Shown: positions 8,862 to 10,959 of the stretch, one piece after another | Numbering within the stretch: the stretch's first letter is position 1 | How the letters are laid out: the number at the start of each line of letters is the position of its first letter | Assembly: GCA_003020985.1 (NCBI GenBank) | Contig: PXRM01000008.1 | Span: 1-64,000 of the forward strand | Source of the DNA: Halobacteriales archaeon QS_4_70_19 | Lineage (GTDB): Archaea; Halobacteriota; Halobacteria; Halobacteriales; Haloarculaceae | DNA length: 64,000 nucleotides | Reading direction: 5' to 3' | Made by a program: the position numbers and the translations under genes | The notes under the pieces: model-generated | Databases searched by the model: none | What the model was told of the DNA's origin: nothing | Seen by the model: only the letters and a program-made list of their open reading frames with translations

Positions 8862-9188
8862 ATGGAGTTCTGCGACGAATGCGGCTCGATGATGCGAACC
8901 GAGGGCGAGGAGTGGAAGTGCACGTCCTGCGGGGAGACGAAACCCCGCGACAGCGCGAAGGAGGCCACCATGACGACCACGCAGGGCCAGGACACCGACA
9001 GCGGCCCGGTCGACATGTCCGAGGTCGACGACGAGGAGATCGGGCCGACGACGAAGGTCATCTGCCCGGAGTGTGGCCACGACCGCGCGCGTTACGAGAT
9101 GAAACAAATCCGGGCCGCCGACGAGTCCGAGACGCGGTTCTTCACCTGTACGGAGTGCGGACAGAAGTGGCGCGAGGACGACCACTGA
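8862..9188 (+). CDS. tfs: Transcription factor S (TFIIS/RPB9-like)
   Basis: A 108-residue two-zinc-ribbon protein that rescues backtracked archaeal RNA polymerase by stimulating transcript cleavage. The N-terminal ribbon has CDEC and CTSC pairs (residues about 4-22), and the C-terminal ribbon has CPEC and CTEC pairs. Between the last pairs sits RAADESETRFF, which carries the Asp-Glu acidic finger that enters the polymerase secondary channel; its presence argues for true cleavage factor activity and not an RPB9-like subunit. The acidic linker (about residues 35-60) is typical of haloarchaea. Monocistronic, divergent from the Nudix gene. Start chosen by the conserved MEFCDECG beginning and the upstream box. 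Confidence 0.95.
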   Translation: MEFCDECGSMMRTEGEEWKCTSCGETKPRDSAKEATMTTTQGQDTDSGPVDMSEVDDEEIGPTTKVICPECGHDRARYEMKQIRAADESETRFFTCTECGQKWREDDH

Positions 9189-9222
9189 CCCCGGCCCCGA
9201 GAGCACTGAACGAGCGACACGT

Positions 9223-9228
9223 TTTATC
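9223..9228 (+). promoter_or_regulatory. TATA-like box upstream of the Cys leader ORF and cysE
   Basis: TTTATC, the same hexamer found before the LSm and FAD-oxidase genes. Here it ends 28 nt before the leader ORF ATG (25 nt in those leaderless genes), so transcription should start at or just before the leader ORF and about 165 nt before cysE. Confidence 0.6.
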
Positions 9229-9255
9229 CGCTGGACGATTCAAGGGGTGACACCC

Positions 9256-9345
9256 ATGGGCAGCACGCGCACCTCGCGCCGACGCCGCAGCGTCCGCCAG
9301 CCCGCGGTCCGCTCGGTGCCGTGCTGCCGTTGTCGACTCTCCTGA
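9256..9345 (+). CDS. Putative Cys-rich leader peptide upstream of cysE
   Basis: A 29-codon ORF (ATG to TGA) that is first on the predicted cysE transcript and nearly leaderless with respect to the TTTATC box. The peptide is Arg-rich in the middle and ends [10 protein letters not shown]: two adjacent Cys codons (TGC TGC), Arg, then a third Cys (TGT), four codons before the stop. A hairpin begins 3 nt after the stop codon. Position before a serine acetyltransferase (the cysteine-pathway entry step) suggests an attenuator that senses Cys-tRNA supply through ribosome stalling. Poly-Cys leaderless short ORFs with this role are known from mycobacteria; none is known to me in archaea. No independent proof of translation here. 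Confidence 0.55.
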
Positions 9346-9348
9346 CCC

Positions 9349-9366
9349 GGTGGCCTTCCGGCCGCC
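9349..9366 (+). promoter_or_regulatory. Hairpin directly after the Cys leader ORF
   Basis: GGTGGCC and GGCCGCC pair over 7 bp (one G-U) around a TTCC loop, starting 3 nt after the leader stop codon and 50 nt before cysE. A ribosome stalled on the Cys codons or finishing the leader would alter its folding. No U-run follows. Confidence 0.45.
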
Positions 9367-9415
9367 CGCGCCGCCCGCATCATCCGTCGACCACCTTCCC
9401 CCCACGCAACCCCAC

Positions 9416-10024
9416 ATGTTCGACCGCATCCGCGAGGACGTCCGTACCGCCAGAGAGACCGACCCCGCCGCCACCAACACCACGGAGGTACTGCTCTACC
9501 CCGGGCTGCACGCCGTCTGGTGCCACCGCATCGCCCACACCCTCTCACGACGCGGCCACGGGTTCGCCGCCCGGCTCCTCTCCCAGCTCGTCCGGCTGTT
9601 CACCGGCGTCGAGATCCACCCCGGAGCGACCATCGGCCGCCGATTCTTCATCGACCACGGGATCGGCGTCGTCGTCGGCGAGACCGCTGAGATCGGCGAC
9701 GGCGTGACCTGCTATCACGGTGTGACGCTCGGCGGCGACTCGCCCCGCCCGGTGAAGCGCCACCCGACCGTCGAGGACGACGTCACACTGGGTGCCAACG
9801 CGACCATCATCGGCGACATCACGGTCGGTACGGGCGCTACCGTCGGGGCCGGTGCCGTCGTCACGGAGGACGTTCCGGCCGGAGCGACCGTGGTCGGGAA
9901 CCCGGCACGGCCGGTCGGCAGCGACGGGACGACGGGGACCGAACCAGCCCCGCCCGAGCCGGTCGACCACGAGGAGCTGTCGGTCTGTGGCCCGGGCTGC
10001 CCGGGCGGGGAGCCCGCGGACTGA
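9416..10024 (+). CDS. cysE: Serine O-acetyltransferase
   Basis: A 202-residue acetyl-CoA-dependent serine acetyltransferase, the first committed step of cysteine biosynthesis in the cytoplasm. An N-terminal helical part ([19 protein letters not shown], then [14 protein letters not shown]) leads into the left-handed beta-helix with hexapeptide repeats: [30 protein letters not shown] (catalytic His), YHGVTLGG, and [20 protein letters not shown]. The short form lacks the long N-terminal domain of enterobacterial CysE. The acidic/Cys-containing tail (CGPGCPGG near the end) is unusual. I chose ATG 9416 by homology; a longer in-frame GTG start at 9350 would overlap the leader hairpin. No Shine-Dalgarno is visible, so coupling with the leader ORF is possible. 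Confidence 0.92.
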
Positions 10025-10051: not shown

Positions 10052-10447
10052 TCAGTAGCAGAACATGAACGGGTACATCAGTGCCACCCGATCCCCGTCC
10101 TCGAGTTCGGTGGCGAACCCGTCGAGATGCCCGTTGAACGTCCCGTTGACGACCACACGGACGTAGGGCCGGATCTGCTCGCCCTCGGGGTTCTTCGCCC
10201 AGTCGCCCGGGAGTTCGGACACGTCGACCCAGCCCCCGGTGCCCGCCTCGGCCTCGGTCTCCGCGACCAGCATCTCCTCCAGCGCGGGATGCTCGACGAA
10301 CAGCGCGTTGAGGAACTCGCCGAGGGTGTCCCCCTCGAAGGTGAAGTCGAACCGGTGCTCGTCCAACTCGCGACGGACGTGACCGGTCGCCTTCACGTCG
10401 ACTGTCGTCGTCTCGTCCCCGGTCGTCGTGCCGGTGGTCGTGCTCAT
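10052..10447 (-). CDS. MoaD/ThiS-like ubiquitin-fold protein without C-terminal Gly-Gly (copy A)
   Basis: A 131-residue protein of the MoaD/ThiS (beta-grasp) family. After a Thr-rich N-terminus comes VKATGHVRRELDEHRFDFTF, the helix TLGEFLNALFVEHPALEEML, an inserted acidic loop (residues about 70-90), then RPYVRVVVNGTFN and DGDRVALMYPF. Canonical MoaD and SAMP proteins end in Gly-Gly for thiocarboxylation or protein conjugation; this one ends FMFCY. It therefore probably cannot act as a sulfur carrier or modifier in the usual way. A similar protein is encoded 116 bp upstream on the same strand with a related promoter sequence. ATG 10447 is preferred over an in-frame GTG three codons earlier. 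Confidence 0.8.
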   Translation of the reverse strand: MSTTTGTTTGDETTTVDVKATGHVRRELDEHRFDFTFEGDTLGEFLNALFVEHPALEEMLVAETEAEAGTGGWVDVSELPGDWAKNPEGEQIRPYVRVVVNGTFNGHLDGFATELEDGDRVALMYPFMFCY

Positions 10448-10472
10448 ACGCTCCACTTCGATAGCATCCGTG

Positions 10473-10563: not shown

Positions 10564-10959
10564 TCAGACCGTCAGCGGTTCGACCAACTCGACCCGATCG
10601 CCGTCAGTCAGGTCGGCGTCGGCGCCGCCGTGGTACTCGTTGAACGTCCCGTTGATCATCACCCGGACGAACGGCCGCTCGCCCTCCGGGGTATCGTCCC
10701 GGAGGTCGGTCCAGCCGGCGTCGTCGTCGGCTCGGGTCTCGCCGATCAGGAGGTCGGCCAGTTCCGGTCGGCTTCCGAGGAGCGCCCCGACGAACTCGCG
10801 GAGGGTCGTGCCCTCGAACGTGAACCCGAAGCGCTGGTCGTCGAACTGGCGGCGGAAACGGCCACGGGCACGGACCGCCACGGTCGTCTGCTCGGACTCG
10901 TCCGCGGACTGCTCGGCCGGCGGTGTGGACTCCGCGAGGCCGGTAGCGTTAGGGGTCAT
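10564..10959 (-). CDS. MoaD/ThiS-like ubiquitin-fold protein without C-terminal Gly-Gly (copy B)
   Basis: A 131-residue paralog of the adjacent copy A, same length and same order of elements: RARGRFRRQFDDQRFGFTFEG, the helix TLREFVGALLGSRPELADLL, RPFVRVMINGTFNEYHGG and DGDRVELVEPLTV. It too lacks the C-terminal Gly-Gly required of MoaD, ThiS or SAMP modifiers, ending EPLTV. The N-terminal 25 residues are low-complexity and acidic. The two genes are in tandem and each has the same promoter-proximal element, so they look like a duplication kept under common control rather than one operon. Function is unknown; related haloarchaeal proteins are loosely linked to Mo/W-pterin enzymes, but none is encoded nearby. 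Confidence 0.78.
   Translation of the reverse strand: MTPNATGLAESTPPAEQSADESEQTTVAVRARGRFRRQFDDQRFGFTFEGTTLREFVGALLGSRPELADLLIGETRADDDAGWTDLRDDTPEGERPFVRVMINGTFNEYHGGADADLTDGDRVELVEPLTV

Follow-up and report, generated by a model that had tools for sequence, protein, structure and literature searches.

A short ORF with a cluster of cysteine codons precedes cysE in the haloarchaeal DNA analysed in this study (a stretch of 64,000 nucleotides, referred to here as the window), and its sequence and conservation indicate that it is probably a cysteine-sensing leader of cysE. It would belong to a class of haloarchaeal amino-acid leaders on which stalled ribosomes would raise the expression of the downstream gene. 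An earlier note on this DNA had suggested a possible archaeal cysteine attenuator; our analyses uphold its main idea, a Cys-codon leader before cysE, by conservation and by gene specificity, but not the two outputs that it proposed, namely refolding of a hairpin and reinitiation at cysE. The presence of an ORF with a Cys cluster upstream of cysE far beyond chance was confirmed, and the larger finding is a set of matching leaders beyond cysE.

The leader ORF and its genus relatives

The leader is a predicted leaderless ORF of 29 codons and a TGA stop at 9256..9345 on the plus strand, identified from its sequence and conservation, with its ATG at 9256, its stop at 9343-9345 and a peptide ending in PCCRCRLS. 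A GTG at 9247 is in frame and represents a possible alternative start, although the ATG is what the compared relatives have in common. Upstream lies a TATA-like box, TTTTATC (9222..9228, plus strand), recognized from the sequence and the A+T profile across loci as the promoter of the leader transcript. The putative sensing codons, TGC TGC CGT TGT (9322..9333, plus strand), are codons 23-26 and encode Cys Cys Arg Cys, placing the Cys codons at 23, 24 and 26 (9322-9327 and 9331-9333); three more codons follow the last Cys before the stop is reached. A C-rich untranslated gap of 70 nt (9346..9415, plus strand) separates the leader stop from the presumed controlled gene, cysE (9416..10024, plus strand), whose product matches the serine O-acetyltransferase equivalog TIGR01172 with 218.2 bits against a cut-off of 210.65. 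The upstream context outside the leader is a transcription factor S gene (8862..9188, plus strand; TIGR01384, 69.4 bits against a cut-off of 64.75). The leader peptide had no NCBIfam match, and Rfam covariance models gave no match up to an E-value of 1 in the window at 9100-9600 and none at the gathering score in ten leader loci. Just downstream of cysE, the minus strand encodes two small ThiS-family (sulfur-carrier-like) proteins (10055-10456 and 10567-10959; PF02597), for which a sulfur link to cysE is possible.

The earlier note had made its proposal depend on conservation of the ORF in close relatives, and this was borne out: all four of the genus genomes searched (the window, L003, L004 and L005) carry the leader, as does Haloglomus irregulare (L032), which was grouped with the window's genus by similarity. 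Both the genus name Haloglomus for the window and the haloarchaeal label of the loci were derived from named records. At the sensing codons, L003 and L004 have CCCC, L005 has CCCCC and H. irregulare has CCCR, in comparison with CCRCRLS in the window. L003, L004 and L005 have TGA followed by CTC at the position of CGA CTC in the window, and H. irregulare also stops there; thus, the leader in the window is three codons longer, the extra codons being Arg Leu Ser, which with the stop span 9334..9345 (plus strand). Some features of this copy count against a cysteine leader, since it has only three Cys codons and extends beyond the stop of its relatives. In addition, the pyrimidine tract is absent after its stop, which is followed by CCCGGTGGCC..., and the counterpart of the relatives' CTCTCC sits just before the later stop of the window.

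Conservation among haloarchaeal cysE loci

The strict search rule, set after inspection of the ORF lists from some loci and used identically for the controls, accepted an ORF of 15-75 codons that begins with ATG 230-110 nt before cysE and has CC or CxC within codons 15-33. A Cys leader was found by this rule in 64 of 129 haloarchaeal cysE loci, in comparison with a mean of 0.7 per 129 in dinucleotide shuffles (maximum of 3 in 20 rounds), one on the reverse strand and none in five shifted search windows. The earlier reading of a Cys-codon ORF ahead of cysE, whose coordinates were correct, is therefore backed by conservation far above chance. A relaxed rule, which allows up to two residues between Cys, scans codons 14-34 and prefers the ATG with the most A/T upstream, raised the count to 69 of 129 (shuffled mean of 0.95, maximum of 3; three on the reverse strand). 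There was a single ATG candidate in 66 of those 69 loci, and one match, L140 in family f7, is doubtful.

At least one Cys leader was found in 25 of 47 genus labels, which were hand-copied and count the three named records as separate labels. Relaxed matches were distributed over families f1 (37/59), f6 (8/8), f7 (23/38) and f12 (1/2), and the same rule found no leader in f4 (0/5), f5 (0/9), f14 (0/5), f17 (0/2) or the single Halosegnis locus (0/1). As genomes within a genus are related, these locus counts are not independent events. That 60 of the 129 loci have no leader by the relaxed rule is a point against the cysteine-leader reading. The 129 loci comprise 22 from a first set, three named haloarchaeal records, 24 chosen automatically and 80 picked for genus spread, the latter drawn from the matches listed in a search that had cysE matches in 223 of 392 genomes. 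Outside the leader count are 77 other loci of the named-record set and the lower-scoring loci L024-L031.

Promoter position and two layouts

The position of the Cys cluster is much the same between loci, with the first Cys codon being codon 22 or 23 in 47 of the 69 relaxed loci (range 18-27; codons 14-34 scanned). Its distance to cysE is variable, ranging from 62 to 128 nt with a median of 82 nt over the 69 loci. A peak in A+T content of 0.84-0.91 was found at -30 to -27 relative to the uORF ATG (64 loci), whereas there was no such peak before cysE. Consistent with this, a TATA-like box (at least five A/T in a 6-nt window) preceded 61 of 69 uORF starts but only one of the 69 cysE starts in the same loci; the same criterion was satisfied by 16 of 60 cysE starts in the loci that lack a leader and by 3.9% of random upstream positions. 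Of the 66 loci with one candidate ATG, 58 had the box, and choosing the last ATG instead gave the same 61 of 69. The box before the uORF, and not before cysE, places the start of the transcript at or near the uORF ATG. The box geometry thus supports the earlier description of a nearly leaderless ORF that is first on its transcript after a promoter box, the start itself being predicted.

Two layouts are distinguished by the position of the leader stop. In layout 1 (38/69 loci: 37 of f1, including the window, and the doubtful L140 of f7), the leader terminates 32-104 nt ahead of cysE; in 29 of 38 loci, at most one codon separates the last Cys from the stop, and 18 of 38 peptides end on Cys. The gaps of those 38 loci are 46% C and 19% G and are, taken together, rich in pyrimidines over their first 18 nt. 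In layout 2 (31/69 loci: 22 of f7, eight of f6 and one of f12), the stop is at or inside the start of cysE, either abutting its ATG (2 loci) or ending 4 nt (3), 8 nt (8) or 20 nt (18) into the gene.

Matching leaders at other genes

Matching leaders were identified upstream of three other genes. Before pheS, a leaderless ORF with a Phe cluster occurs in 18 of 27 loci, among which are three species of the window's genus. The cluster begins at codon 20-25, and most peptides end in GFGFFFA or PFFFA; an alternative rule also gave 18 of 27, with L282 replacing L277. At ilvB (L363-L392), 24 of 30 acetolactate synthase loci have a leaderless uORF that ends in Ile/Val/Leu codons and VGA or VGV, mostly followed by CCCC, and the ilvB leader of the window's own genome (L386) ends ...RRLLALLGIVGAA. 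The trpS case is less extensive: Trp clusters were found by rule in 11 of 30 loci, a mixture of paralogues and a few low-scoring relatives, and nine were kept by eye after L338 (which does contain RWRWH) and L362 were dropped. The trpS leaders (L333-L346) have a cluster that is mostly WRW, in most cases followed by an ADS-like motif, and their first Trp codon, at codon 6-10, comes early in the ORF, in contrast to the Cys and Phe leaders. The gaps behind the pheS leaders (L276-L302; for example L293, L294 and L281) have features of their own, with recurring GGTGGAC, GACGAAACC and GAACCGTTAACTGA.

The pheS, trpS and ilvB rules were written after the first matches had been inspected, and the ATG with the best promoter was chosen. 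When a promoter-filtered rule was applied to matching pairs, leaders were found in 57 of 129 loci for Cys and cysE, 12 of 27 for Phe and pheS, 8 of 30 for Trp and trpS, and 23 of 30 for branched-chain VGA ends and ilvB. The non-matching cells held 0 or 1, with the exception of Cys in cysK (3/30). The table is close to diagonal, showing that the amino acid of the leader matches the downstream gene.

No leader was judged real at cysK (30 loci), cysS (28), trpE (30), hisG (28) or pheA (29); the trpE loci are often inside longer open stretches, and the test covered the region before trpE, not the operon head. That the other cysteine genes tested, cysS and cysK, are without a leader judged real counts against the cysteine-leader reading. 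The three Cys ORFs at cysK (L252, L260 and L271) were rejected as leaders as all are zinc-ribbon-like by eye, and stray matches of Phe in hisG (L445), Phe in pheA (L472) and Cys in pheA (L453) were discounted. An ungapped pattern of poly-Cys and stop was also tried across the 392 genomes, but in 18 of 30 fetched loci the match was not preceded by an ATG or GTG in frame, so it provided no route to a regulon.

RNA folding and possible outputs

The 7-bp hairpin that the earlier note saw after the leader stop is present at 9349-9366, and the whole gap, including a second stem of 3 bp, folds at -16.4 kcal/mol. It is unexceptional in comparison with shuffles (z -0.74, with 38/200 folding as well; z -1.53 and 19/200 for 9340-9385 alone) and differs or is missing in the four genus relatives. 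The hairpin was therefore rejected as a conserved attenuator. Across the 38 layout 1 loci, the gaps had no folding signal (mean z -0.02), and the same was found for the ilvB and trpS gaps (mean z -0.14 and -0.26, respectively). The pheS gaps often fold better than shuffles, with 8 of 18 below z -2; four pheS leader loci scanned had no Rfam match.

T-runs within 45 nt downstream of the stop were counted and compared with mononucleotide shuffles (500 rounds). After the cysE leaders, there was no enrichment, with TTTT in 2 of 38 loci versus 2.3 in shuffles and TTT in 12 of 38 versus 10.1; this and the lack of conserved RNA structure are points against the cysteine-leader reading. TTTT was enriched soon after the ilvB leaders (5/23 versus 1.0 shuffled, reached in 0/500 rounds), TTT was mildly enriched after the ilvB (10/23, reached in 11/500 rounds) and trpS leaders (4/9, reached in 12/500), and there was no enrichment after the pheS leaders (1/18). 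As the enrichment is unevenly spread, no shared U-tract terminator is claimed. A trp-type hairpin terminator and antiterminator was likewise rejected at cysE, where the gaps have neither a folding signal nor an excess of TTTT and the hairpin of the window has no T-run and is not conserved.

A different output is that of the mycobacterial-type translational attenuator, in which a helix in the leader RNA hides the start of cysE and is opened by a ribosome stalled on the Cys codons. The genre is the same, a leaderless short poly-Cys ORF before a cysteine gene, and when a ribosome was set to cover the Cys codons, the cysE start was predicted to become more open by over 0.15 in 7 of 68 loci (in f1, f6 and f7), with none losing as much. 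However, there was no such gain in the other 61, the window included (0.68 with or without the ribosome), in predictions made at 37 C without the high salt of the cells. Moreover, the predicted cysE start in f1 is already open (mean of 0.57 versus 0.44 in the 60 loci without a leader), and the folding energy of the leaders is at the level of shuffles (mean z +0.33 for 38 loci and -0.29 for 31 loci). Unmasking of the cysE start was thus rejected as a general output in the predictions, this mechanism is unlikely to be the one at work, and the refolding of the hairpin by a ribosome stalled at the Cys codons that the earlier note envisaged finds no backing in these results.

Slightly less likely still is that the leader is a termination-reinitiation device, a positive coupling in which its translation feeds ribosomes to cysE. 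The evidence for such a device is in layout 2, where all 31 stops abut the cysE ATG or end 4, 8 or 20 nt inside the gene, since short overlaps are the coupling-competent class (PMC10666635). In f6, codon 2 of cysE ends in T in 8 of 8 loci, which creates a TGA at +6 to +8; elsewhere, it ends in T in 12 of 121 (p 8e-8, the genomes being related). The f6 loci in which this T supplies the leader stop are L013, L123, L130, L147, L154, L177, L183 and L188. We rejected selection for the f7 stop position (+18 to +20), as this stop is frequent in loci with a leader (19/23) but also in those without one (9/15). The window and the 37 other layout 1 loci have their stop 32-104 nt before cysE, whereas reinitiation in Haloferax volcanii is described as falling to nil at about 22 nt (PMC10666635). 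Reinitiation at cysE across the 70-nt gap of the window, the second output of the earlier note, is consequently unlikely. Furthermore, cysteine starvation would lower cysE under such a device.

Proposed mechanism

Returning to the cysteine-sensing leader, the promoter position suggests that the cysE transcript starts directly at the short ORF or only a few nt away, so that a ribosome would start on the leaderless ORF at once and reach the Cys codons at codons 22-26. If Cys-tRNA is ample, it would presumably complete the leader and leave at the stop, whereas if Cys-tRNA is scarce, it would stall on the Cys codons and the output of cysE would rise. In layout 1, transcription might otherwise end early in the C-rich gap by factor-dependent termination, as in archaeal polarity, for which a review gives FttA as the likely cause (PMC12548453), and a ribosome parked at the edge of the gap would prevent this. 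We propose early termination blocked by a parked ribosome only tentatively as the output for the layout of the window, at somewhat below even chances. In layout 2, ribosome traffic across the cysE start codon would be the likelier lever. A point against a raised output there is that the overlap allows termination-reinitiation, by which stalling would lower cysE, the opposite sign.

Taken together with the other leaders, it is conceivable, and again rather less than an even proposition, that haloarchaea have a general, ribosome-read control of amino-acid genes. Leaderless leaders whose Cys, Phe, Trp or Ile-Val-Leu codons match cysE, pheS, trpS or ilvB would act without terminator hairpins, a parked ribosome gating the passage of RNA polymerase through the gap under an archaeal termination factor.

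Constraint on codons and peptide

One pair per genus, the closest usable one, was compared in 15 genera: of the single codon changes, 36 were synonymous and 62 non-synonymous, with 27% expected to be synonymous (p 0.02), suggesting weak constraint on the leader peptide. Third codon positions were not significantly the most variable (p 0.07, 15 genus pairs), which counts against the cysteine-leader reading. The Cys cluster is kept in 53 distinct nucleotide forms among 69 loci, with the number of Cys ranging from 2 to 5, and the peptide outside the cluster differs between genera, although the frame is kept within genera. Weak peptide constraint and a Cys cluster in 53 nucleotide forms fit codons mattering more than the peptide.

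These data bear on the explanation of the ORF as the gene for a small functional protein rich in Cys, for metal binding or redox, with cysE merely being downstream. Many small Cys proteins are described for H. volcanii (PMC10716476), and retention of the frame within genera would suit such a protein. Nevertheless, we consider it very improbable, given the difference of the peptide beyond the cluster between genera, the variable number of Cys, the 18 of 38 layout 1 peptides that end on Cys and the lack of an NCBIfam match. The pair of C(P)XCG motifs given as the signature of zinc-finger small proteins in PMC10716476 was not seen by eye in the peptides of the window and its genus. Metal binding also leaves unexplained the parallel Phe or Ile-Val leaders before matching genes. 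Just as improbable is an arrest peptide, with the nascent chain in the exit tunnel, not uncharged tRNA, acting as the sensor of cysteine or another ligand. The peptide length at which the Cys cluster sits is nearly constant, at about 22-26 residues, which is near the length of the exit tunnel, but known arrest peptides have a conserved sequence, unlike the haloarchaeal segment from start to cluster, which is not conserved between genera.

Relation to known systems

Control of amino-acid genes by leader peptides is a textbook bacterial mechanism, and haloarchaeal mRNAs are mostly leaderless. If the reading of the Cys-codon ORF as a cysteine-sensing leader is true, such control would extend to a second domain, in a lineage with mostly leaderless mRNAs, which would suggest that leaderless translation and starvation-sensitive codons are enough for a sensor. 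It would also provide a tractable test of translation-transcription coupling in archaea. At their length, the leaders can be missed by usual gene calls. No report of an archaeal amino-acid leader was found by title or abstract among the matches listed in a search of mostly openly readable literature, and the passages available from two archaeal translation papers mention uORFs in general terms or not at all (PMC11456600, PMC12482152). The leaders at pheS and trpS resemble uORFs of H. volcanii located by start-site mapping, as dRNA-seq revealed uORFs of 26 aa at pheS and of 23 aa at a trpS, both within long 5'-UTRs; their sequences are not given in the part of the paper concerned (PMC4983044). 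The table of that paper for 5'-UTRs of 150-250 nt has no cysE or ilvB entry, and the accompanying section contains neither amino-acid matching nor a reading as attenuation (PMC4983044).

The haloarchaeal Cys leaders have much in common with the attenuators of mycobacteria: both are short ORFs with contiguous Cys codons that precede a cysteine gene, and the haloarchaeal ones, too, are predicted to be leaderless and to open the transcript, with the ribosome reading cysteine. Polycysteine leaderless short-ORF attenuators were reportedly described in mycobacteria by Canestrari et al. in 2020. The polycysteine leaderless ORFs of mycobacteria and M. tuberculosis are also cited in passages of PMC9094748, PMC9031893 and PMC13236596. 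Short ORFs whose Cys codons are adjacent or nearly so were found here ahead of a cysteine metabolic gene, cysE, in 64 (strict) or 69 (relaxed) of 129 loci. However, the haloarchaeal leaders are archaeal, have no start-hiding fold that could be found, and were seen before cysE but not before cysK or cysS in the loci tested. They also differ in having a cluster near-fixed at codon 22-23, a second layout, and companion leaders with Phe, Trp or branched-chain codons. We do not class them as members of the mycobacterial type because the structural output does not appear in the predictions and their response to cysteine is a predicted one.

Comparison can also be made with the leader-peptide transcription attenuators of bacterial trp, his, ilv and pheST, among which ilvB and pheS are classical targets. 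An example is the ilvB1NC leader-peptide attenuator of M. tuberculosis (PMC13236596). In both cases the regulatory codons match the controlled pathway, but no alternating hairpins are evident in the haloarchaeal cysE, ilvB and trpS gaps, whose mean z values are given above. In the tnaC-type leader of E. coli, termination is factor-dependent. The haloarchaeal leaders are similar in having a C-rich, weakly structured stretch immediately behind the stop; a ribosome parked there could keep a termination factor away, although, by analogy, the archaeal factor would be FttA.
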